The notes below the pieces were generated by a model. It was given only the letters and a program-made list of their open reading frames with translations. It was not told the DNA's origin and made no database searches. The translations under genes were made by a program, and so were the position numbers. A stretch of DNA of 37,396 nucleotides from a virus: IMG/VR virus record IMGVR_UViG_3300042542_002303, positions 1-37,396 of that record; one strand, 5' to 3'. The stretch's first letter is position 1, and every line of letters begins with the position of its first letter. Shown one piece after another: positions 3,486 to 36,272 of this stretch.

Positions 3486-4799
3486 TCAGACTCGCCCCCA
3501 TTCATCGGTCAGGGCGTCACCTGGCGTTGTCTGGTTGGCGCGTGGGCGATGGACGGGCCACTGCCAGTGACAGAGATAACCAAGGGCGTCGATACCGTGA
3601 TCGATATCGCCTCGCTTGTCGGGGTCGCCATTGCGGTCCAGCGCCTGCGTTTCCAGCGCCCGAGTGAGCACGGGGGCAGCGCTGGCGTCGACGGTGACGC
3701 GCCGGTCACGGAAGAGCACATTTAGCGTGTTGACCCTGTCCTTGACGGGCGGGTTTGCGTTGCCATGCACCGGCCTGAACCCGGCCTGCGTCAGTAGCGC
3801 GACGTCGCTCTTCGTCGACGTGGAACGAAGCGCCGTGCCGCTGGCGTCGACGAACGCCTGTAGTCGCATCTGGTACACGTCGTCTCGCGTGTAGTGCCTC
3901 CCTCGTGTGCGGGTGAGGTACTGCGCGATCCACTGTGCCACTCGCTCGGCGTGTTCGTCCGTCGTCGTGCCGTTTTCCTTGATCACCTCGCCGACGACGT
4001 GTGTCGTGCGTTGCGATTGGTCCGTCTCGACGACGATCCAGTGCATGTATCGCACGTTGAAGTCACACGCGATCTGAATGGTGCCGCGATTGACGACGGG
4101 CGACACGCAATGCACTCGCCTGTCGAATCGGCCGTAGACGCGCCCACCCTTGGCCGTGCGGACGCCGTCGAGTTTCTCTGACGCCGTGCTGTCGTCCATG
4201 CGTTGCCGCATCGATTCGACATACGTCGACGAGAGGTAGCTATTCGCCGACGACGTCACGCTCCACTGCCGCACGTCGGGGCTCGGCTTGGCCAAGATCA
4301 TCTCGTAGGCCGGCCCGTAGCCTTCAGGTGTGCCCGTCAACACGATTTGCTGACACGGCCCCATGCTGACACGGGCCATCGCCGTCGTCAGGGCCTCGAC
4401 GTCGCACAGCTCCCACTCGTCGACGAGAAGCCCGCCAGCGGTGATGCCTTCAAGGGAGCGGGGCTCGTCGGCACTGCGGCACAAGATCTCCATCTGCCGC
4501 TTGCGCCCGATGGTCAGGATCTTGTCCGTTTTGTGCCATGTATAGGGCAGCTTCCACGCATCCAGCATCCGCCGCGCCGTCGCCACGAAAACGTCGACCA
4601 CCATGCGGTAGGTAGGCTCAACGACAAGGATGGGGAACCCGCCAGACCGGAAAGCCATGTCGACGACGGCCGCGACACCGGCGACCGTTTTCCCGCTGCG
4701 GTAGCCACCTTGGAGCACCTTGATTCTCGACGTCCTGTCACCAACCAGCGCAAGCTGGTGAGGTAGCAGGGTCGCCGCGCCACGCTGAATATTCAGCAC
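3486..4799 (-). CDS. terL: Terminase large subunit (ATPase/nuclease)
   Basis: 437 aa, GTG start (MLNIQRGAATLLPHQ). The N-terminal ATPase has Walker A GGYRSGKT at about residues 31-38 and a Walker B with catalytic acid in GLLVDEWE. A coupling motif follows in VLTGTPEGYG. The C-terminal RNase H-like nuclease shows its acidic residues in ACDFNVRY, FVDASG and DHGIDALGY. It docks on the portal and pumps DNA into the procapsid while cutting concatemers. The gene follows the small-subunit candidate by 6 bp and precedes the portal. Confidence 0.95.
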   Translation of the reverse strand: MLNIQRGAATLLPHQLALVGDRTSRIKVLQGGYRSGKTVAGVAAVVDMAFRSGGFPILVVEPTYRMVVDVFVATARRMLDAWKLPYTWHKTDKILTIGRKRQMEILCRSADEPRSLEGITAGGLLVDEWELCDVEALTTAMARVSMGPCQQIVLTGTPEGYGPAYEMILAKPSPDVRQWSVTSSANSYLSSTYVESMRQRMDDSTASEKLDGVRTAKGGRVYGRFDRRVHCVSPVVNRGTIQIACDFNVRYMHWIVVETDQSQRTTHVVGEVIKENGTTTDEHAERVAQWIAQYLTRTRGRHYTRDDVYQMRLQAFVDASGTALRSTSTKSDVALLTQAGFRPVHGNANPPVKDRVNTLNVLFRDRRVTVDASAAPVLTRALETQALDRNGDPDKRGDIDHGIDALGYLCHWQWPVHRPRANQTTPGDALTDEWGRV

Positions 4800-13968: not shown

Positions 13969-14179
13969 CCCCGACCGCTACTTGCCCGATCCCGGCATCG
14001 ACGACAGCCCCACCGACGCCGAGCTTGCCAGCGTCGCAGACGGCGTCGACGTGACCCGATGGGTGATGGATCTCGTCGACACTGGCGAGGACAGTGCGGC
14101 CCTGCTCCGGTGGGCGCAGGACTGCTACCGAGAGATCATGGATGCGGTGGAGCGTAACCGAGAGGAGCGTGATGCGTGA
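13961..14179 (+). CDS. Small acidic hypothetical protein (72 aa)
   Basis: 72 aa, ATG at 13961 with GAGGTGA upstream. Acidic and helical (DAELASVADGVDVTRWVMDLVDTGEDSA, then CYREIMDAVERN); no family recognised. Its end overlaps the start of the cytosine methyltransferase gene by 8 bp, which suggests translational coupling. Confidence 0.75.
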   Translation: MIDPDRYLPDPGIDDSPTDAELASVADGVDVTRWVMDLVDTGEDSAALLRWAQDCYREIMDAVERNREERDA

Positions 14180-15086
14180 GCTGGCTCTTTTCGCGGGTGC
14201 TGGTGGAGGCATCCTCGGCGGACATCTCCTTGGGTGGCGCACCGTGTGCGCTGTGGAGTGGGACGCCTACGCAGCCTCCGTCCTGGTTGCCCGCCAAAAC
14301 GACAAAATCTTGCCGCCTTTCCCGATCTGGGATGACGTGCAGACGTTTGACGGACGAGCATGGCGAGGCCGTGTTGACGTCGTGTCTGGCGGTTTTCCCT
14401 GTACCGACATCAGCACCGCAGGACGTGGCGCAGGCATCGACGGAGAAGCGTCCGGCATGTGGCGTCACATGGCGCGAATCATCGGTGAGGTACGACCGCA
14501 ATACGTCTTCGTGGAAAACTCACCGGCTCTTGTTCACCGAGGCCTTGCCCGAGTCCTCGGTGACCTTGCCGCGCTGGGGTATGATGCGCGATGGGGTGTG
14601 CTGGGAGCGGCTGACGCCGGGGCACCACACAGGCGCGACCGAATATGGATCGTTGCTGCCGACGCCGACTGCGTCGGTGATGGGAAGCAACACCACCATG
14701 CGACGTCACGGCCAGACGTTAATGAGTCGAGTGTTAATGTGGCCGACGCCCACGGCTCATTCTTGGAAAGAGAAAGGATATCCGGCGGAATACAATCGGA
14801 TGACTCCGGGGCTTGGATCAGTCGTGCTGAAGCCGCATTTGTGGCCGACGCCACAAGCGAGCGATTGCCGCAACAGAGGCAACGCGGACACACCGGCAAT
14901 CGCCAGACGAATCGAAGCTGGCAAGCAAATCACATTGACCATGACTGTCAGTGGTGGGCAACTGAACCCGACGTGGGTCGAGTGGCTCATGGGGTGGCCA
15001 ATCGGGTGGACCGATTGCGCTGTCTCGGCAACGGACAGGTTCCAGAAGTGGTGCGCCTCGCATGGCGCACGTTGATTAACGACTGA
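14172..15086 (+). CDS. dcm: C5-cytosine DNA methyltransferase
   Basis: 304 aa, ATG at 14172 after GAGGAG. The family motifs are in order: I (LFAGAGGGILGG), IV with the catalytic Cys (GGFPCTDIS), VI (FVENS), VIII (RRDRIWIVA), a variable target-recognition region, and X (LGNGQVPEV). It transfers a methyl group from S-adenosylmethionine to cytosine C5, probably protecting phage DNA from host restriction; no cognate nuclease is nearby. The target-recognition region contains repeated VADA units. The whole gene is also open in the +1 frame (14176-15075), where the translation matches another widespread phage protein type. Confidence 0.93.
   Translation: MRELALFAGAGGGILGGHLLGWRTVCAVEWDAYAASVLVARQNDKILPPFPIWDDVQTFDGRAWRGRVDVVSGGFPCTDISTAGRGAGIDGEASGMWRHMARIIGEVRPQYVFVENSPALVHRGLARVLGDLAALGYDARWGVLGAADAGAPHRRDRIWIVAADADCVGDGKQHHHATSRPDVNESSVNVADAHGSFLERERISGGIQSDDSGAWISRAEAAFVADATSERLPQQRQRGHTGNRQTNRSWQANHIDHDCQWWATEPDVGRVAHGVANRVDRLRCLGNGQVPEVVRLAWRTLIND
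14176..15075 (+). CDS. Overprinted +1-frame ORF inside the cytosine methyltransferase gene
   Basis: 299 codons, GTG start four bases into the dcm frame. The translation begins MSWLFSRVLVEAS and carries SSWKTHRLL, WGMMRDGV, three [LW]PTP[TQ]A repeats, and ends LNPTWVEWLMGWPIGWT then DRFQKWCASHG. From memory this matches a phage protein type that is common in databases and usually annotated as hypothetical or methyltransferase-like. It appears to be the alternative frame of dcm genes. It may be a real second product or a persistent annotation artefact forced by conservation of the dcm frame. Only an expression or substitution-pattern test could decide. Confidence 0.35.
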   Translation: MSWLFSRVLVEASSADISLGGAPCALWSGTPTQPPSWLPAKTTKSCRLSRSGMTCRRLTDEHGEAVLTSCLAVFPVPTSAPQDVAQASTEKRPACGVTWRESSVRYDRNTSSWKTHRLLFTEALPESSVTLPRWGMMRDGVCWERLTPGHHTGATEYGSLLPTPTASVMGSNTTMRRHGQTLMSRVLMWPTPTAHSWKEKGYPAEYNRMTPGLGSVVLKPHLWPTPQASDCRNRGNADTPAIARRIEAGKQITLTMTVSGGQLNPTWVEWLMGWPIGWTDCAVSATDRFQKWCASHGAR

Positions 15087-18132: not shown

Positions 18133-18364
18133 TGTGGTTTCCCTTCAGCAAAAGTGCTTCAATGCGGTCGAATCTTTTGTCCATCTCGGCCTGCATCTTC
18201 TCGACGCTGCCGGCCACCATCGCCAGCGCTTCCTTGCTGGCCTTGTCGCTGCGCAGCTCCGATGTGATCTCCTCGAGACGGCGCACACGAGCCTGTAGCG
18301 CCGCCCATGCCGCTGCGCCACCTGTCGCTGCCGAGAGAGCACCGATAGCGATTTGCTCAATCAC
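18119..18364 (-). CDS. Membrane plus coiled-coil protein, holin or inner-spanin candidate
   Basis: 81 aa from GTG 18364 (GAGG upstream, 4-bp overlap with the phospholipase gene). One N-terminal membrane segment (IAIGALSAATGGAAAWAAL) is followed by a long charged coiled coil (RVRRLEEITSELRSDKASK, then VEKMQAEMDKRFDRIEALL). This topology is seen in XhlA-like lysis accessory proteins and in inner-membrane spanins. I see no lipobox-bearing outer spanin partner nearby. Its place between the phospholipase and the endolysin supports a lysis role. Confidence 0.7.
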   Translation of the reverse strand: MIEQIAIGALSAATGGAAAWAALQARVRRLEEITSELRSDKASKEALAMVAGSVEKMQAEMDKRFDRIEALLLKGNHSGTR

Positions 18365-19209
18365 GCCACACCTCGAAACCACGCGCCGCAGAGACGGACG
18401 GTGTCGTAGCCGGTCGACCACTCACGTTCGACGCGCTGCCTGTTTTTCTTGAATGCCCAATCGTTGACGGCGTCCACGTCAACATCCAGCCCGTCAGTGC
18501 GTCTCGACTTGCGTTGCGATGGAGCCCACAGCAGAGCACGGGGAATCGCAGAGAGAATCGCCGGGACGTCACCTGGGCGGATGCGGCCGGCCGGGTCCAT
18601 CGGTGCCTCACCGAGACGCACGGATACGCGAGGCTCCGGCTTGTGGTCCCAGACGCTGTCGACAGTGTTGTCGGTGAACCCGCCATCGCCATACAGACGA
18701 ATGTCGGGAGACAACTCCGTGCCGATTGACGGGATGACCGCCGCAGGGACCACGCCGCACATGAACGACGACGACGCGATGACCGCCTCGCGCACCACAA
18801 TGCGCGGTGTGCTGTGCTTCGACAGGTATACGGGCCTCGCCCTGTCGAGGTCAGTCACGCACACCACAAGCCCGCTGGTTGCGTCTCCGAGTCGTGCGCC
18901 CTTACCGACGTGCGTGTCGACGAGGTCGCCGATGACGTCGAGAGAAAACAGACCACCACGGGGCACACTGGCCGGCGACAGCGCGAGAGTCTGTCCACTC
19001 TCCAGCACGTCGACGAGCATGGCGACGATGACTTCGTCGGGCAGACCAAATGCCTTGCACGTCGCGACGATGGAGCCCGCCGATGCACCGCTCCACCCAA
19101 GCACTTTCGCGTGTGCGTCGACGGCAGCAGCAGCACCGGCGAGGTAGGTGATAGCGGGGCCACCTCCACTGATACTGGCGTACACTGCACGACGTGACAT
19201 GCCGGTCAC
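18361..19209 (-). CDS. Patatin-like phospholipase
   Basis: 282 aa from GTG 19209 (GTGA overlap; an ATG lies three codons in). The patatin fold markers are in order: glycine-rich oxyanion loop SGGGPAITYLAG near residue 15, nucleophile elbow GASAGS (G-x-S-x-G), the REAVIASSSF helix, and the catalytic aspartate in YGDGGFTDN. The Ser-Asp dyad is complete. Patatins hydrolyse acyl chains from phospholipids. No signal peptide or fused domain is visible. It lies in the late operon between a membrane protein and a membrane/coiled-coil protein, just before the endolysin, so membrane attack at lysis is a reasonable inference. Interaction with host membrane defence is an alternative. Confidence 0.87.
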   Translation of the reverse strand: MTGMSRRAVYASISGGGPAITYLAGAAAAVDAHAKVLGWSGASAGSIVATCKAFGLPDEVIVAMLVDVLESGQTLALSPASVPRGGLFSLDVIGDLVDTHVGKGARLGDATSGLVVCVTDLDRARPVYLSKHSTPRIVVREAVIASSSFMCGVVPAAVIPSIGTELSPDIRLYGDGGFTDNTVDSVWDHKPEPRVSVRLGEAPMDPAGRIRPGDVPAILSAIPRALLWAPSQRKSRRTDGLDVDVDAVNDWAFKKNRQRVEREWSTGYDTVRLCGAWFRGVA

Positions 19210-19468: not shown

Positions 19469-20242
19469 TCACGCCCTCCCGTCGTAGCATGAGCCATCCC
19501 GCCAGAAACGCTGCTCGGTGTAGACGACGATATCCGCCGTGAATCGGCCAGACTTGCGCTCGATCCAAAACTCTCCGTGTCCTTGCGTCCATCCTGTCGG
19601 CCCCTTGATGTAACTGCATTTGTCAACGGGAGCGAGGCACGGCAGACCGAAGGCACCACGCACATGCTGCGAGCCCTCAGGGCCAGCCACCGGCATCGTG
19701 TAGAGCTGTGCGCGGTGACAGTGCCCGATGACCAGGTTCGTGCCGTATCTCAGCAGATGCGACTTGCAGTAGGCATCGCCGGCAAACACGCCATGCGTGA
19801 ATCCGAGGTGCCCGATCTTGTGCACCTCACCGTATGGCGTCGACGTGATGGCGTGGTCGACGAGACGAAGCGCGGATGCCCACGTCTCCATTCCTGCAAG
19901 TGCCGGCGCTGTCTTCGCGACGAAGCGCCTGTAGCGGTCCTCATGGTTGCCCTCGACGTAGTGGATCGGCTTGCGTCCCATGATCTTGCGCAAGCGCGAC
20001 AACTCATCGCGGACCTGCTCAAGTTCGGCGAGGAACGCCTGTCGCGGCTCTCCGTCGTCATGCAGCGACACCGCCGCAAAGTCGGCAAAGTCGCCGTTGA
20101 TGATGAGCCGGTCAGGCTTGCAGTCCTCGAGACGCTTGAGGAACGCCGCCCACGCAAACGGGTCATGGAAGGGGACATGGACGTCGCTGCACACCATGAC
20201 GTGCTCGACGTCGGCCCGCAGCTTTCCCTTGCGGCGGGTCAC
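19469..20242 (-). CDS. Calcineurin-like metallophosphoesterase
   Basis: 257 aa from GTG 20242 (GTGA overlap with the upstream stop); the frame is open further upstream but that part overlaps another gene. All metal-site motifs are present: D-x-H in CSDVHVPFH, GD in INGDFADF, GNHE in VEGNHEDRY, the His in FTHGVF, and G-H-x-H in IGHCHRAQ. Phage members of this family are common; substrates range from nucleic acids and cyclic nucleotides to ADP-ribose-type compounds. Its place among late genes is unusual for a nuclease of replication and leaves the substrate open. Confidence 0.9.
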   Translation of the reverse strand: MTRRKGKLRADVEHVMVCSDVHVPFHDPFAWAAFLKRLEDCKPDRLIINGDFADFAAVSLHDDGEPRQAFLAELEQVRDELSRLRKIMGRKPIHYVEGNHEDRYRRFVAKTAPALAGMETWASALRLVDHAITSTPYGEVHKIGHLGFTHGVFAGDAYCKSHLLRYGTNLVIGHCHRAQLYTMPVAGPEGSQHVRGAFGLPCLAPVDKCSYIKGPTGWTQGHGEFWIERKSGRFTADIVVYTEQRFWRDGSCYDGRA

Positions 20243-20469
20243 CGCTCCACTTCCGTGGTGTGCGTCGGCTCGACGTCGGGGTAGTGCCAGTGGGGATACT
20301 CGCCGACAGAGCGGTGGTTCATCGTGCGCGTCGCGATGTTCATGCCGCCGAAGTAGTCCGCAGAGATGCGACCACCGCCGAGGTGGCGACGCACGAATCC
20401 GGGGCAAGCGTAGGTGTCGGAGATGACGACGACGACGGCGTCACCGATAACGGGTGTGCGGATCTTCAT
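20239..20469 (-). CDS. Small hypothetical protein (76 aa)
   Basis: 76 aa from ATG 20469, just after AGGAGG and the hairpin at 20482-20508. The N-terminal half is beta-like (KIRTPVIGDAVVVVISDTY); the C-terminal half has several His and Tyr residues (GEYPHWHYPDVEPTHTTE). No family recognised. Overlaps the phosphoesterase gene by 4 bp. Confidence 0.7.
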   Translation of the reverse strand: MKIRTPVIGDAVVVVISDTYACPGFVRRHLGGGRISADYFGGMNIATRTMNHRSVGEYPHWHYPDVEPTHTTEVER

Positions 20470-27664: not shown

Positions 27665-29037
27665 CAGGTCACCTGTTCATGTGCGGTGGTGTCGAGGTCA
27701 TACAGCGGCACACCGGGGCCGATTCGGCGAGGCCGAAACGCCGACAGCGTGTCCTCCGACCAATGCAGCGTACCGAACGGGTGCTCGATGATCGGGGCCA
27801 GCGTGGAGCCCGATGCCACATTGACCTCACGAGCCTGGAATGCAGCGCCAGCGCCGAAGCGCCGCACGAACGATTCAAGCGAGCCACCGGGGTCGACGCT
27901 GGCCCGCAGAAGCATCCGCGCTTCGTGAACGAAGGCGAACCCTAGGGACCATGACACCATGTGCGATGACCTCGATACGCCGACCACGCCGCCGTTCGCC
28001 TTGCGCGGCACGGCCACTGTGCGCTCGCCAAATGGCTCACGTTCGCGGAGCACATCGTTTCCGACCCAGACTGCGGCCGCGCTCCTTGCGCCGCTCTTAG
28101 GGGCGCTGTCGTTCTCCGTGGAGGCACTGAACCCCAACAGGTCATAGTCGAAGGTCTGGCTTCCGTCCTTGACGAGGCCGAAGGTATCGGTGCCCGCCGT
28201 GCGGGTGATGGTCAGCACCGATGCCTGCTTGTCGGGGTCGATGTCTGCGGCGAGTGACACGTCGTAGGCGTTGCCGCCAGCGCCGAAAGCGTCGAGGCCG
28301 GTCTTGATGGCGAGCGCCAGCTCATTGCTGGGGCCTGTCGCCGAGGCGGTGGTGGTGCGGACGTAGGGGCCGACACTGGCGGCAGCCTCGATCTGAGCGC
28401 CCCACACGAAGATGCCGCTCACGCCGTCGCCAAGATAGATGGAGTCGCCTGCCGCTGGTCCGCTGCTTGTGGCGATGAGCAATTGCGCGGTGACCGCAGT
28501 GTCCGATAGGCCGGTGATGGCGATGCGATACCATCCATTTTCCAGCGTCGTCACGGAGCACAAGCCCAGCGTCCATGTCCCGTTAGATGTGACGTAAGCG
28601 ATGCCCCCCGTCAGGAGGTTTATTGTGACGTCAATACGGTTTGCCGACGTACCCGAAAAAAGATACGCACGGACAAAGTTGCGCCCGTCGGGGCGGGCGT
28701 AGAAGCTGGCCGTGTAGGTTATCTGTGATGCAGCTTTTGAGACGGACTTCGAGACAAAATGGACGTTAGACGTCGCATTCTCCACAACCTTGTCGGCCGT
28801 CAACGTGCCATCGGGTGCGATGACGACGTTGGGTGCGAGGATGACTTGAGATTTCGTCCAGCTCGCATCATCAAGGGACTCGCTGTACGTCGCCAGATTC
28901 GTCGCGTACCTGCCCCGCAGAAAGTAGGTGCCCAGCGCAAGGTCGACGTTCCCGACCGCGCCAGCGGCCTCACGGAAGCGCAAGCGCCGGTTGGCTGCGG
29001 TGACGACGACAGCGCCAGAGAGGACCGGATAACTCAC
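27664..29037 (-). CDS. Distal tail protein with inserted carbohydrate-binding-like module
   Basis: 457 aa, GTG at 29037 (GTGA overlap, GAGGTG upstream). Directly follows the tape measure, the usual Dit position. Residues about 45-235 look like the carbohydrate-binding/concanavalin-like module frequent in phage tail proteins: NLATYSESLDDASWTKS at its start, DGTLTADKVVE, YTASFYARPDGRNFV, GWYRIAITG, and a VGPYVRTTTA exit. The surrounding parts (LALGTYFLRG before, PSNELALAIKTG after) read as one interrupted tail protein. Dit proteins with such insertions have been called evolved Dits and bind host sugars. The inserted DNA is locally less GC-rich. Confidence 0.7.
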   Translation of the reverse strand: MSYPVLSGAVVVTAANRRLRFREAAGAVGNVDLALGTYFLRGRYATNLATYSESLDDASWTKSQVILAPNVVIAPDGTLTADKVVENATSNVHFVSKSVSKAASQITYTASFYARPDGRNFVRAYLFSGTSANRIDVTINLLTGGIAYVTSNGTWTLGLCSVTTLENGWYRIAITGLSDTAVTAQLLIATSSGPAAGDSIYLGDGVSGIFVWGAQIEAAASVGPYVRTTTASATGPSNELALAIKTGLDAFGAGGNAYDVSLAADIDPDKQASVLTITRTAGTDTFGLVKDGSQTFDYDLLGFSASTENDSAPKSGARSAAAVWVGNDVLREREPFGERTVAVPRKANGGVVGVSRSSHMVSWSLGFAFVHEARMLLRASVDPGGSLESFVRRFGAGAAFQAREVNVASGSTLAPIIEHPFGTLHWSEDTLSAFRPRRIGPGVPLYDLDTTAHEQVT

Positions 29038-30872
29038 GCTGCACCTCGTCGGCGGTTGCCGCTGGACGTGACCTTGTGGATCTCGCGGGCGATATCCTCT
29101 GGCAGCGGTCCGCCTGCACCGTATGCCACGTTGACAATCAATGGGCCACCGGAGCCGCCGCCGCCGCTGCTACGGGGGGAGGCACCAGGGTCGCGGGTCG
29201 CCTTGTCGTCGAGGGGCTTGCCGATGGTGCCGCCTGCGGCTGTGTGTGACAGCGCGGCAGAGCCTGCGCCCATGCCGACGCCAGCGGCGACAGCAAGGCC
29301 GCCTAGGCCGAGCATGGCTGGCCCTCGTGGGTCGCCTAGGATCGACATTCCGGCACCCTCGAAAAGGTACTTCGTACCGATGCCAACAAGCTGATCTCCG
29401 GTCGCCGCCAAGAACGCAGCGGCTGCTAACTGCTCTGCGTTCTCAGCGCCTTCAATCTTCGCCTTGAAGTAGTCCTCTGAGACATTTATCAGCGTCGTCG
29501 TCGCACCCTGTGCAAGCTGGCCGATATCGTTATACATGCCTTCATATTGCTTGACGTTGTCCTTCAGATTCTTGAATTCATGCGCCTTCAGCTTGTCAAG
29601 ATTTTCCATCTTGTGATTCATGGCGACTGTGTCGAACGCCATGCGAGCGGCGAGGCTTTCACCCTCAAGTTGCTCTAGGCGCGACTGGTGAAGCTGCTCT
29701 GCGCGTTCGCGTTCGCGCCTCTGCTTGTCCATGTCGCGAAATTCGTCTGCCATTTCCTTCGCTTGTTTTTTTCTGTCTGCTGCTCGCGCTTTTTTGACGG
29801 CCTCTAGCGCTTTGTCTTCATCGTCAAGCATTGCGACATGAAGGTCGTAGCGAAGCTTCGCTTCGTCTTCGGCCTGCTTTTCTGCGTCTTTTGTTTTCTT
29901 ATCTTGAGACGCTTTGTATGCCTCTTCTTGCGCGTTCGCCGCATCGACGGCTGCATCTGTCTTCAGTTGCTCAATGCGCTCGGCCTCAATGGACTCATAT
30001 CGACGGAGAAGAACCTGTTCTTCGATGGCAAGATTGTATGCGTCGGTGACCTTGCGGTACTCGGCCATAACGTCTTTTGCAGCGACGCGAACCTTCTCCA
30101 TCTCCTGCTTCTGGGCGTTCCAGCGAGTGATCCAAGTGTCAAGACCGCCCTGCGCCTGCGACGCAATCATGCCCATCGCACGTTGATCGTTTGGGTCGAT
30201 TCCAAATTGTGACCGGAATGTCGTCTGCGCTTGTTTGCCTGCGTTGGCGGCCTCCTCGACTGCCATCTTCTGCGCTTGAATCCGCCCCATGCTTGCGCCG
30301 AGGATCAGATCCTGCATTTCGGTGTCGGCGTCTTGAATGGCCTTCTTCAGGTCTTCCATGTGCGATGCCGCAGCATCGGCTCCGGCCTTGCCTGCGTCGC
30401 CAACGCCGCCAAAGTTCTTGATGAGTTGATTGACGCCGACTGCGGCTAGCGAAATAGCGGCGGTGAGGCCGGCGCTACCCCCGATGGCCAACACCATCCC
30501 AGGGATGTTGTTGATGACGCCGCCGATCCCATACTGAAGGTCTTCCATCGCTCGCGACGCTTCAAGCGCCGCCATCCCAAAGCCGCCCCCCCGAGCCGTG
30601 CCAATCGCCTGCGATGCCCTGTTGGCTGCAATGCGTGTGGTGTTGAGTTGAGTTGTGAGGCGATTCATCTCCTCGCGATAAAATCCCGTGTTTGGCCCGC
30701 CCGCCATGATGGCGGCGTTCAAATCTTTGATGTCTCGCTCAAGCGCAATGATGCTTTTGTCGACGCGAGCGACGACGGTGTCGACGCCACCGAAGCGTTT
30801 CTCTACGTCGGCAACGGCCGCCTGCGCTTGCGTGGCGTTGACCTTGACGACGTACTCGATTGTCTGCGTCAT
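29034..30872 (-). CDS. Tape measure protein
   Basis: 612 aa, ATG in an ATGA overlap with the chaperone fusion frame. N-terminal YVVKVNATQAQAAVADVEKRF and long helices with heptad character are typical of tape measures. A hydrophobic segment lies near residues 115-150 (GGVINNIPGMVLAIGG onward). A long charged coiled coil spans about 290-450, followed by another hydrophobic Gly/Ala stretch (GLGGLAVAAGVGMGAG) and a Gly-rich C-terminus. Tape measures set tail length; 612 residues at about 0.15 nm each would give a tail near 90 nm. The gene follows the G/GT chaperones, as in other siphoviruses. Confidence 0.93.
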   Translation of the reverse strand: MTQTIEYVVKVNATQAQAAVADVEKRFGGVDTVVARVDKSIIALERDIKDLNAAIMAGGPNTGFYREEMNRLTTQLNTTRIAANRASQAIGTARGGGFGMAALEASRAMEDLQYGIGGVINNIPGMVLAIGGSAGLTAAISLAAVGVNQLIKNFGGVGDAGKAGADAAASHMEDLKKAIQDADTEMQDLILGASMGRIQAQKMAVEEAANAGKQAQTTFRSQFGIDPNDQRAMGMIASQAQGGLDTWITRWNAQKQEMEKVRVAAKDVMAEYRKVTDAYNLAIEEQVLLRRYESIEAERIEQLKTDAAVDAANAQEEAYKASQDKKTKDAEKQAEDEAKLRYDLHVAMLDDEDKALEAVKKARAADRKKQAKEMADEFRDMDKQRRERERAEQLHQSRLEQLEGESLAARMAFDTVAMNHKMENLDKLKAHEFKNLKDNVKQYEGMYNDIGQLAQGATTTLINVSEDYFKAKIEGAENAEQLAAAAFLAATGDQLVGIGTKYLFEGAGMSILGDPRGPAMLGLGGLAVAAGVGMGAGSAALSHTAAGGTIGKPLDDKATRDPGASPRSSGGGGSGGPLIVNVAYGAGGPLPEDIAREIHKVTSSGNRRRGAA

Positions 30873-31857
30873 CGCCTACCTCGTGGCCTAGCGGCTTCCT
30901 GCGCCCGTGCCTCGGTACGCGCCTGCTCGGCATCCGACTGCATCTTAGCAGCTCTGCCAGAATCCACGACCGAGAAGGCGTCTACGGCGTGTGTGGACAG
31001 CGCACGGAGCGCCTCCACGCCCGGCTTGCCTTCGCATGAGCGCCACAAGGCAAGCGCCCCGCCGACGTCGGGGTGGTCGCGTAGGTGTCGGCGAGGGCAT
31101 CGGCGTGTGGCGTGTTCAGTGCCGGCGAAGAAAACCACCGGCCCGTCGGAAGTGCATCCCTGCTGTGATCGTCGCGCCGTGGGGCAGTCGTCGCAGTCGT
31201 ACCGTGTCAGGTCGACAGCGGTTGCAGCCCACAGCGCACGGCTTTTCCCACGGGCAACTCAAGGAAGTGCCGGGCAGCCTGGTACAGCGGAGCCAGCAAG
31301 CCGGCGAGGGTCAAGCCCGGCATCGACTCGGCGATGGTCGCCTTCATGCCCTCGATACCCGACACCTCGACAACGATGGCGGACACGACACGGGCCGCGA
31401 TGGCATCCAGCGCGTTCAGGGCGCTCTGTGCGCCGACGAGGTCGCCAGAGACGCGACACTCCCGCACCCTCGCCCATTGCGCCTGCGTCTCAGCGTTCCA
31501 AAGACGTCTATCGGCGTCAGCGACTACCTGCATCGTGACGAGAATACCCTCCAGCGCCGGGTCTGGCTCGTAGGGGCCGACTTCTTCCAGCGCGTTGCCC
31601 TCGGTGAGTTCTGCAAGCAGCCGCGCCTCACGGGCCAACTTGGCGCTGTCGCGGTCTGTGAGCGCCAGAGAGACGCCAGCGACTGACTCGGTGACCTGCT
31701 TCCAATCCGTGCTGTCGTCGAGGGGCACACGGCGCTTACGGCGTCCCTCTATCTGCGCCTTGCGGGCCTCGCGATAGGCGTCGTGCGCCTCGCGTAGGAC
31801 GTCTTGCAGCGGGACAGGTGTGCCACGGGTGCCGGGATAGATGAGCAGAGCTGGCAT
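30869..31857 (-). CDS. Tail assembly chaperone GT fusion made by -1 frameshift
   Basis: Reading starts at ATG 31857 and shifts -1 on GGGAAAA (31249-31243), giving 205 residues of the G part plus 124 residues of the T part, 329 aa in all. The -1 frame is open from the slip (AGC CGT GCG CTG) to the stop at 30869, which overlaps the tape-measure ATG by 4 bp. The T part starts with a cysteine cluster (YDCDDCPTARRSQQGC) and ends basic (RTEARAQEAARPRGRR). As in lambda G/GT, the fusion would coat the tape measure and recruit tail tube subunits. No convincing independent start with a ribosome site exists for T. Confidence 0.88.
31207..31857 (-). CDS. Tail assembly chaperone G (zero-frame product)
   Basis: 216 aa, ATG at 31857 with GAGG upstream. 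Mostly helical (PLQDVLREAHDAYREARKAQIEG, split over one long amphipathic helix; then AKLAREARLLAELTEG and DADRRLWNAETQAQWARV). The slip site lies 12 codons before the stop, so the zero-frame product is nearly the full G domain. Position immediately before the tape measure plus the frameshift make the assignment secure. Confidence 0.9.
   Translation of the reverse strand: MPALLIYPGTRGTPVPLQDVLREAHDAYREARKAQIEGRRKRRVPLDDSTDWKQVTESVAGVSLALTDRDSAKLAREARLLAELTEGNALEEVGPYEPDPALEGILVTMQVVADADRRLWNAETQAQWARVRECRVSGDLVGAQSALNALDAIAARVVSAIVVEVSGIEGMKATIAESMPGLTLAGLLAPLYQAARHFLELPVGKAVRCGLQPLST
31243..31249 (-). other. Slippery heptamer GGGAAAA for programmed -1 frameshifting
   Basis: In the zero frame it reads gtG GGA AAA gcc, the canonical X-XXY-YYZ arrangement. 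Lambda uses the near-identical GGGAAAG in its G/GT pair. Downstream in the -1 frame the T domain is open for 124 codons, while the zero frame stops 12 codons later. A GC-rich stretch follows that could hold a stimulatory structure, but I did not find a clear one. Confidence 0.9.
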
Positions 31858-31892
31858 GTATGCGCCTCATGTGAGGGGTTTGCGCGGCGATA

Positions 31893-32207
31893 TCACACGC
31901 GCTGGGGAACGTCGACAATCGTCAGGGTGCCCGACAGCACGGGCAGATTCTCGTCGACGTCGGACACCCACACCTCATAGACCCATCGGCCGGGCTGAAG
32001 TGCGCCAGCGTAGTCCGCCGCCGCGAACGTAAACGTGGCCTCGCCCGTCGCCGGTGAAACGACCGTCCCAGCCTTCGCCAGTTGACCCTGAGCGCGAACA
32101 ACCATCGTGACCGTGTATCCGGTCAGGTTGAACGGTCCGCCGCCGCTGGCGTTGATTTGGAGCGTTACGGTCTGGGTGTGGCCCTGTTTGATCGATAGCG
32201 CCGTCAT
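31893..32207 (-). CDS. Ig-like or baseplate-upper-protein-like virion protein (104 aa)
   Basis: 104 aa, ATG at 32207 (ATGA overlap; AGGTG upstream). All-beta sequence: KQGHTQTVTLQINAS, FNLTGYTVTMVVRA, GEATFTFAAADYAGAL, GRWVYEVWVSD and SGTLTIVD. This order resembles the small beta-sandwich (BppU N-terminal/Ig-like) domains of tail proteins that bind or decorate other virion proteins. Accessory tail role inferred. Confidence 0.7.
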   Translation of the reverse strand: MTALSIKQGHTQTVTLQINASGGGPFNLTGYTVTMVVRAQGQLAKAGTVVSPATGEATFTFAAADYAGALQPGRWVYEVWVSDVDENLPVLSGTLTIVDVPQRV

Positions 32208-33256
32208 GGTGACACCTGTCCGGTGAGGGTGAGGCCGGCTGGGATGGAGCCGGTGAGAGATTGCGCGGCTGGGATGACGCCGCCAGCCGTCAGCGTAGCA
32301 GGCACGGTGCCCATCGCCGACAGCGATGTTGCGGTGTTGCCTATTGCAGGCAACACCGCAGGAACGGTGCCGATGAGCATCGGGGGCTTGTTCGTCGCCC
32401 AGATACCGACGCCGTCGAGGGTGATTGCGCCAGTGCCAAGGTTGGGAATCGAAGTAGCGCCGTCGACGGCCGCATCGTCGAGGGTGACAACGCCGGAGGC
32501 AAAGACCACCGCCGCAACGTCGCCAGTGCAGGAGACAGCGTCGAGTGTGATAGCGCCCGACGCAACGTGCGTTTGTGTGCCAGAGCCCGCCACGGTGGCG
32601 TCGGCGAGGGTGATAGCGCCCGTGCCGAACACGACAGCGGCGACGGTGCCCGTCGAGGTGACGGCGTCGAGTGTAATTGCGCCCGTGCTGGCGACGACGG
32701 GAGAGCCCGCGCCAGCCACCGTGACGCTGTCGAGGGTGACAGCGCCGGACCCGACAACCACCGGGGAGCCGGTGCCTGCAACGGTGACGGCATCCAGCGT
32801 GATAGCGCCGGTGCCGTCGACGGAGGACGCGCCGACGTCACCCGATCCTGCGACGGTGACGGTGTCGAGAGTGACCGCGCCCGTGCCGAAGACGACGTCG
32901 GAGACGACGCCAGTGCAAGCGACGGCGTCCAGGGTGATTGCCCCGGTGGCGACGTGTGTTTGCTGGCCACTACCAGCGAACGCCACCGTGTCGAGGGTGA
33001 CCGCGCCGGTCGCAACGTGCGTCTGCTGGCCACTGCCCGAGACGACGACGGTATCGAGCGTGATTGCGCCGGTCGCGGCGACGCCGCTACCAGACCCTAC
33101 CGTCGCGCTACCGCTAACGACGGCATCGGCGAGGACGATGTCGCTCGACTCCTCAAGGTTGATTGGCGGATTTGGATCGTGGTTGGTGGGCGTCGTCGCC
33201 CACTGCGTCTGCGCCCACGACCGAACAACGAGGCCGTTGCCGGAAATCTGATGCAC
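32204..33256 (-). CDS. Repeat protein of twelve ~21-residue units, probable beta-solenoid virion protein
   Basis: 350 aa, GTG at 33256 with AGGAGG eight bases upstream. Residues 1-37 are unique (MHQISGNGLVVRSWAQTQW..). Residues 38-294 comprise twelve units of 21 residues (first 23, fifth 24) on the pattern G-[TS]-G-A-[IV]-T-L-D-x-V-x-[VS]-x-G-x-G. Residues 295-350 are five 10-residue units on a GTVPAxLTA pattern. Uniform alternation of small and beta-branched residues suggests a beta-solenoid or fibrous spike. It sits between an unrecognised virion protein and an Ig-like protein in the tail module. Repeat number may vary between relatives. Confidence 0.8.
   Translation of the reverse strand: MHQISGNGLVVRSWAQTQWATTPTNHDPNPPINLEESSDIVLADAVVSGSATVGSGSGVAATGAITLDTVVVSGSGQQTHVATGAVTLDTVAFAGSGQQTHVATGAITLDAVACTGVVSDVVFGTGAVTLDTVTVAGSGDVGASSVDGTGAITLDAVTVAGTGSPVVVGSGAVTLDSVTVAGAGSPVVASTGAITLDAVTSTGTVAAVVFGTGAITLADATVAGSGTQTHVASGAITLDAVSCTGDVAAVVFASGVVTLDDAAVDGATSIPNLGTGAITLDGVGIWATNKPPMLIGTVPAVLPAIGNTATSLSAMGTVPATLTAGGVIPAAQSLTGSIPAGLTLTGQVSP
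32375..33145 (-). repeat. 63-bp coding tandem repeat array
   Basis: The DNA encoding repeats 1-12 has a 63-bp period with diverged units; each carries a version of GGxGCxATCACxCTCGACGC on the minus strand. Divergence between units suggests an old array kept by selection on the protein. The repeat also opens long antisense frames that are by-products. Confidence 0.8.
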
Positions 33257-35042: not shown

Positions 35043-36272
35043 TCACCCCACAGAGAGGATAGCAGGAAGAGCGCCGGTGCCGGTGGCAACGACGCGAGCA
35101 ACGGTGAGGCCGTCGACGTGCTGCGTGGTGACCACGCAATCAGCCTCAGGCATGTAGGCATACATCACGGCCCCGATCTCGGTGCCGACCTGGAGTGACA
35201 CCTTGCGGGTCACGGACACATCGCCAGCGGCGTCGCTGTCGCCGATGAGGTCGTTCAGCGTCGGAGAACCCGCGCTGTCCTGCAACTCGCCAGCGAGGTT
35301 GGCGTCGCCGACGTAGATGGAGAATTCCATCGTGAACGTCTTGCCGTCGCCAGTGGAGCTGACGCCACCAACGCGCCCGTTCGTGCGCGTCGACGCAACA
35401 CGGGGCGTCGTCGCCGCGCTGTAGTTGATCGTCAAGTCGCGGGCGATGACGTCGTTGCCCGCAAACCACATGCGGCAAGCGTCGACGACGATGGGGTTAC
35501 CCGACACGGGCTCGGCATGGGCCGGGTTGGCTTCGGCAACGTCGCTAAACGACGTCGGGGAGAAGACCGAGGTCATGCCCACGAGGCCGGCATTCGGCAG
35601 GGCAAGCGCAAGGCTCATCGGCATACAGCCGAAGTAGTCGCGCCGCCAGTCCTCGCCCTCTGCGGCAAACATCGCATGGACGTGGTGCGTGACGGCGTCA
35701 GCGACGGTGTAGACCGCGTTGCGGAAGACGGTCGCGCCCGTCGTCGGGGTGCCGCTGTAGGGATGGTCCAGCGTCAGCGTCGTCGTGCCGCCACCGCTGG
35801 CGATGCGGCCCATCTGCAAGCCCGCCGACGAAGCGAAGGCGATAACCTGCCCGTTTGCGGTGGTCGTGCCGACGACGGCAACGATTCCCGACGCTGGCGT
35901 GTGACCGCTTGCAGCGACAGTCGGCGCAACGCCCGACGTCTGAGGGGCCACAGCGCCGAAGAGCGAGGCGAGCAGATAGCCCTGCTCCATCTTCGCTTCC
36001 CAATCGGTGACAGCCGCGCCCGTGTTGCTGTTGACCCCGCGCATCTCGGTGGCGACGGAGATATCGGCGAGGTCTTGCACACCACGAACATGCGAGTAGC
36101 GCCGGCCCGACAGTGAGCGCAGCGGCCGCGCAATCGGCGCACGGTTGCGCGGAAGGAACGACGCGCCGTCGTCGGTGAGACGGAGGGGAACGAGCGTCGG
36201 CGTACCGGTGAACGTGAAGGCGTTCGTGTGGAGGCCGTAGCGCAACGTGGACAAGCGAGCGACGTCGGTCAT
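35043..36272 (-). CDS. Major tail tube protein
   Basis: 409 aa, ATG at 36272 (ATGA overlap with the tail terminator gene). Lies between the tail terminator and chaperone genes, the standard tube position. Beta-rich with a conserved-looking tube core (ISVATEMRGVNSNTGAAV, DWEAKMEQGYLLASLFGAV) and a C-terminal strand set (KTFTMEFSIYVGDANLAGEL, VTRKVSLQVGTEIG). At 409 aa it is longer than minimal tube proteins, with an extra central domain (residues about 105-200) that may decorate the tail surface. Confidence 0.75.
   Translation of the reverse strand: MTDVARLSTLRYGLHTNAFTFTGTPTLVPLRLTDDGASFLPRNRAPIARPLRSLSGRRYSHVRGVQDLADISVATEMRGVNSNTGAAVTDWEAKMEQGYLLASLFGAVAPQTSGVAPTVAASGHTPASGIVAVVGTTTANGQVIAFASSAGLQMGRIASGGGTTTLTLDHPYSGTPTTGATVFRNAVYTVADAVTHHVHAMFAAEGEDWRRDYFGCMPMSLALALPNAGLVGMTSVFSPTSFSDVAEANPAHAEPVSGNPIVVDACRMWFAGNDVIARDLTINYSAATTPRVASTRTNGRVGGVSSTGDGKTFTMEFSIYVGDANLAGELQDSAGSPTLNDLIGDSDAAGDVSVTRKVSLQVGTEIGAVMYAYMPEADCVVTTQHVDGLTVARVVATGTGALPAILSVG

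Follow-up and report, generated by a model that had tools for sequence, protein, structure and literature searches.

A lambda-type G/GT tail-chaperone cassette very probably expressed by -1 frameshifting in an uncultured tailed phage

In an IMG/VR virus record of 37,396 bases and 64% GC, the whole of which was analysed and is called the window here, two overlapping reading frames lie on the minus strand immediately before a long tape-measure-type gene, and the question raised by this locus is how the second of them, T, comes to be translated. The upstream tail-chaperone frame, G (31207..31857, minus strand), encodes as its 0-frame product a protein of 216 aa with relatives found down to 45% identity, and ends at a TGA (31207..31209, minus strand). 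From 31258 onwards the -1 frame stays open as far as a stop ending at 30869; it shares 52 nt with G, and this stop coincides in part with the ATG (30872) of the next gene. The slippery heptamer GGGAAAA (31243..31249, minus strand) is situated close to the 3' end of G, and a -1 shift on it would give a T reading of 125 aa (30869..31246, minus strand; beginning KSRALWAATAVD) and a predicted GT fusion of 329 aa, whose junction would read LPVGKSR. We consider it very probable that this is a lambda-type G/GT tail-chaperone cassette with a -1 frameshift in an uncultured tailed phage, because the heptamer, its phase, the open frame, their conservation, the dual-coding constraint and the selection on T before any likely start all fit this reading.

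The heptamer is phased X XXY YYZ in G (gtG GGA AAA), with AAA as codon 205, followed by 11 sense codons and TGA as codon 217, which ends 43 nt from the first base of the heptamer. An earlier note on this DNA had described exactly this phase, 12 codons before the G stop, as well as a -1 frame open into T and up to the tape-measure start, and both descriptions proved accurate; the range that it gave, 31207-31273, comprises the heptamer, the remainder of G including its stop and some upstream bases. A -1 event joining the two frames is confined to the overlap, from 31258 to the G stop, and this heptamer is the sole in-phase XXXYYYZ across the entire window G. Resampling synonymous codons 20,000 times over the last 17 codons of G produced an in-phase GGGAAAA in 0.34% of cases and any in-phase XXXYYYZ in 1.6%. 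All 4 copies of GGGAAAA in the window are on the minus strand. Eight other window genes, when pooled, contain 5 in-phase XXXYYYZ motifs (2 with A or T in the second triplet) and no in-phase GGGAAAA.

Relatives were collected from IMG/VR by searches with G, with a T alignment and with G alignments, which gave overlapping sets of contigs. The widest set comprises 37 loci, in 7 of which the contig ends inside G, leaving 30 with a complete G. In every one of the 30, GGGAAAA is present and the distance from its first base to the end of the G stop is exactly 43 nt, and all 30 keep the two-frame arrangement, so that the comparison with related phages proposed in the earlier note bears out both heptamer and frame layout; loss of the heptamer in relatives that keep both genes, which that note had named as evidence against the frameshift, was found in none of them. 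In the set obtained with the T profile the frames were joined by the same heptamer at 27 of 27 T loci, a figure biased towards conservation of the overlap because the search patterns sit in or beside it. A fairer set, searched with patterns from the middle of G only, contained 24 loci, and the heptamer was present in all 18 of those with a complete G. Removal of exact duplicates left 29 sequences including the window, which fall into 12 groups at 80% DNA identity and 4 at 75%, the most distant pair being 53% identical; since these sequences are related, they do not amount to 29 independent observations.

The conservation extends to codon choice at the slippery site. Codon 204 (Gly) is GGA and codon 205 (Lys) is AAA in 29 of 29 sequences, although GGA makes up 12% of the Gly codons and AAA 38% of the Lys codons in the G genes of this genome group, and at 5 further Gly positions that are invariant but lie outside the overlap, 3 or 4 different codons occur per position. 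The residue encoded just before GGA varies (P in 21, V in 7 and A in 1) and its third base is always G. Over codons 205-216 the ratio of observed to expected synonymous differences was 0.175, compared with 0.52-0.92 in the other 17 blocks. Such low synonymous change is expected over the end of G where two frames are read, and this drop alone does not separate coding from RNA signals.

A hairpin is predicted 3' of the heptamer. It spans 31170..31240 (minus strand), with arms at about 31240-31228 and 31183-31170, and the 93 bases 3' of the heptamer fold at -41.2 kcal/mol, a value equalled by 3 of 200 dinucleotide shuffles (z -2.85). When shuffles preserving the T protein and the overlap were used, 13 of 14 representatives were more stable than their shuffles (mean z -1.56), the representative L071 being no more stable (z +0.51); the corresponding sign-test p of 0.0009 is optimistic because the 14 representatives are related. 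Among 15 sequences examined, the predicted stem begins 2-5 bases past the heptamer in most, and the partner of its 5' arm usually lies at about columns 66-80, shifted to about columns 70-84 in L082 and L089; L070 and L071 pair more weakly. RNAalifold on 28 sequences returned short stems and did not recover the hairpin as one long common stem. In a stem written by hand, 86.3% of cells pair across 24 distinct sequences, compared with 29-58% for slid versions; the same sequences contain no two-sided, covarying changes, since the 5' arm hardly varies, and a search of 30800-31900 against Rfam gave a single match, far below the gathering score. With moderate support from these folding models, the GC-rich hairpin is likely to act as the frameshift stimulator. 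As a separate observation on this stretch, when L002 and L057 are compared with the window (31857-30869), near-identity holds throughout G and for 30 codons into T, where 89 of 90 nucleotides agree, and identity drops to about 67-80% per block beyond T codon 30, an apparent recombination joint just 3' of the heptamer and hairpin.

Whether T could be translated from a start of its own was assessed in the window and in its relatives. The earliest ATG, GTG or TTG of the T frame in the window is GTG 31138 (31136..31138, minus strand), with none between the opening of the frame and Cys-31, and Cys 18, 21 and 31 of the T reading precede this codon; the first cysteine cluster thus lies upstream of the sole likely start, as had been pointed out previously. 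Those three cysteines belong to a set, Cys18, Cys21, Cys31, Cys50, His54 and Cys71, which is invariant among 12 aligned members and whose composition suggests a metal site in T. Selection on T was measured in 28 sequences, L061 being omitted since its contig ends inside T. Over the 21 T codons from the G stop to the codon at +108, which is GTG 31138 in the window, pN/pS was 0.39 when the T frame was read, whereas the two remaining frames of the same DNA gave 1.47 and 1.25. This protein selection ahead of the first plausible start indicates that T-frame protein is made there, and therefore that, in the window, the shift is the only route that uses ordinary starts (ATG, GTG, TTG).

Across the relatives the picture is less uniform. 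From the point where the T frame opens up to Cys-31, 17 of the 28 sequences have no ATG, GTG or TTG; the other 11 have at least one, which lies downstream of the heptamer only in L062 (TTG at +36) and L084 (TTG at +81) and deep within G in the rest. At +108, 25 of 28 sequences have ATG or GTG; the exceptions are L057, with ACC, and L074 and L079, both with ATC. In the window the Shine-Dalgarno energy of this codon is -2.6 kcal/mol, against a mean of -3.2 kcal/mol for background positions inside G, and it ranges from -10.1 to -14.0 kcal/mol in L082-L089 (8 of 28), where the codon is an ATG preceded by a strong Shine-Dalgarno sequence (GGAGG) inside T and could be an internal start for a short T product. 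The view of the earlier note that T has no good start therefore holds for the window, where the GTG has a weak ribosome-binding context, and may not carry over to the L082-L089 clade. The same division applies to a separately translated T start, which the note had listed as contrary evidence: the window offers just this weak GTG and three relatives no start codon at this column, but the eight with a strong Shine-Dalgarno sequence do provide a candidate.

An additional short T product from the +108 codon is accordingly possible in the L082-L089 clade. A reading in which both routes operate, with part of the group making three products, namely G, the frameshift GT and a shortened T initiated internally at the 31138 column behind a ribosome-binding site of its own, fits all the conservation data and draws on the frequency of start codons at this column and the strong Shine-Dalgarno sequences of that clade, but the GTG context in the window is weak and the start codon is not universal, and we judge it unlikely. 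If it were true, this shortened T would be devoid of Cys 18, 21 and 31, and it and GT might be competitors for the tail-tube protein.

The same start codons and the same clade could be taken to mean that T is simply a separate gene, begun at GTG 31138 (ATG in many relatives), and that the heptamer is incidental. Such a gene, however, would drop the invariant Cys 18, 21 and 31, would be deprived of a start codon in the three relatives with ACC or ATC at this column, and would leave unexplained the T-frame protein selection on earlier codons, the constraint on the end of G and a heptamer that is invariant in 30 of 30 loci, which makes this explanation very improbable. Slippage of RNA polymerase on the A run, in place of ribosome slippage, would join the same frames, but the run consists of just four A, known polymerase slippage runs are longer than this, and the invariant G GGA AAA phase together with the G-ending prior codon fits the pattern of a paired-tRNA slip, so we find it scarcely credible. 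A sequencing or assembly error breaking one continuous gene, conceivable in metagenomic contigs at a short A run, is practically negligible given an identical two-frame layout in 30 of 30 contigs with distinct sequences in 12 groups and a G tail that is constrained past the heptamer too. The fusion of G and T by a -1 frameshift thus remains, as had been proposed, the best explanation of the locus, on the strength of the conserved heptamer and of the selection before GTG 31138.

The assignment to a tail-chaperone cassette depends in part on the neighbouring gene (29034..30872, minus strand), whose ATG overlaps the T stop and whose 612-aa product had no useful PHROG match of its own. This protein matches the downstream protein of the relative L025 by BLASTP at 1e-41, and the L025 gene in turn matches the tape-measure profiles phrog_7025 (2.1e-05) and phrog_1538 (6.8e-04) as well as the tail-lysin profile phrog_1047 (4.5e-06). 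Tape-measure profiles reached E 0.001 or better in L025 and L079 only, the other 8 of 10 scanned downstream genes being without them, and an ORF of more than 250 codons starts -4 to +4 nt from the end of T in 17 of 17 relatives checked. By this homology in two steps, the G/T cassette would directly precede a tape-measure gene.

The sequences of G and T themselves were of little help. Neither Pfam nor PHROGs contained a family for the window G or T at E below 1, NCBIfam gave no useful match for G, and the PHROG most often matched by members of the G family, phrog_1869 (3 of 11, E 0.021), is without assigned function. A sequence search of the PDB with the G and T profiles gave no match, and the T profile against bacterial and archaeal genome contigs gave 32 pattern matches, none of which was confirmed. 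In tblastn searches of 50,697 phage records the window G had no match, while the window T had 4 weak ones (E 0.4-0.5) in Rhizobium and Rhodobacteraceae phages, which we inspected in their annotation and set aside as unconvincing; against named phages, G of L028 gave 2 matches at E 0.5, and T of L028 and G of L036 gave none. AlphaFold2 predicted a mainly helical G (mean pLDDT 81.5) and a T model too poor for a fold search (pLDDT 51.5). Foldseek with the G model returned nothing at E 0.001 or better, and together with VIA-align it found common helical arrangements; a tail chaperone was absent among the PDB matches listed, which excludes nothing. The third and fourth BFVD rows for this model are tail assembly chaperones of Arthrobacter phage Molivia at weak E values (0.096 and 0.11), and their presence among the top four rows offers only a hint. 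G and T are consequently named for where they lie, for the neighbouring tape-measure gene and for the frameshift, the sequence families being without match.

Elsewhere in the window we observed a terminase large subunit (3486-4799, minus strand) about 31% identical to Salmonella and Escherichia phage terminases, with 31.5% for LSPA1 (Guernseyvirinae), a C-5 cytosine DNA methylase (14094-15086, plus strand; E 2.4e-32), a Patatin-like phospholipase (18361-19209, minus strand; Pfam Patatin, E 8.7e-12), a Calcineurin-like metallophosphoesterase (19469-20407, minus strand; E 3.2e-09), and a 350-aa ORF of GTGAITLDxVTVAGSG-type repeats without a PHROG match (32204-33256, minus strand). An ORF of 409 aa (35043-36272) is a candidate major tail protein by its position. 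Salmonella phage LSPA1 has a tail module of similar layout, with a major tail protein, later two chaperone genes and then the tape measure, but neither hhalign nor hmmsearch revealed similarity between its chaperones and G or T, and the first of these chaperone genes lacks an in-phase XXXYYYZ towards its 3' end.

The lambda heptamer is GGGAAAG (G GGA AAG) and lambda G has about 140 aa. The window departs from lambda G/GT in its GGGAAAA, in a longer G of 216 aa, in a cysteine-rich T, and in a G and T that match no PHROG or Pfam model. The two agree in having two overlapping frames right before the tape-measure gene and, towards the 3' end of G, a G GGA AAR heptamer for the -1 shift, lambda features that are covered in part by a review (PMC5009743). 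According to that review, a low level of -1 frameshifting from G into T is a widely conserved trait of long-tailed phages, with G binding the tape measure and T the tail-tube protein (PMC5009743). The GGGAAAA heptamer itself is shared with tail chaperones that shift by -1, as published for Microbacterium phage Bush (PMC11749239) and on mycobacteriophage TM4 (quoted in PMC4626039 from Xu et al. 2004), although neither Bush nor TM4 is among the matches to the window G (0) or T (4, E 0.4-0.5) in the 50,697 phage records. For the 3,679 SEA-PHAGES genomes, the PRFect paper gives a figure of 2,397 tail-chaperone genes annotated as joined (PMC10885494).

Under the frameshift reading, the majority of ribosomes would read G through to its stop and yield the 216-aa product, and a minority would slip by -1 on G GGA AAA, presumably aided by the GC-rich hairpin a few bases 3'. 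These slipped ribosomes would enter T and produce the 329-aa GT fusion, whose T domain is rich in cysteines and probably binds metal. If the analogy with lambda applies, G would coat the tape measure, and the major tail protein would be recruited by the T portion of GT. The mechanism is the textbook one of lambda G/GT and no new principle is added; what is new is this cassette, from a group of phages whose chaperones no model matches. An automatic pipeline would overlook GT, since this product lacks a reading-frame start of its own and neither G nor T is recognised by any family model. As a clean comparative case of a frameshift cassette, the 30 relatives keep the heptamer, the 43-nt distance to the stop and the probable hairpin down to 53% G DNA identity, and the missing chaperone pair can now be annotated in this group of ~37 kb phages.
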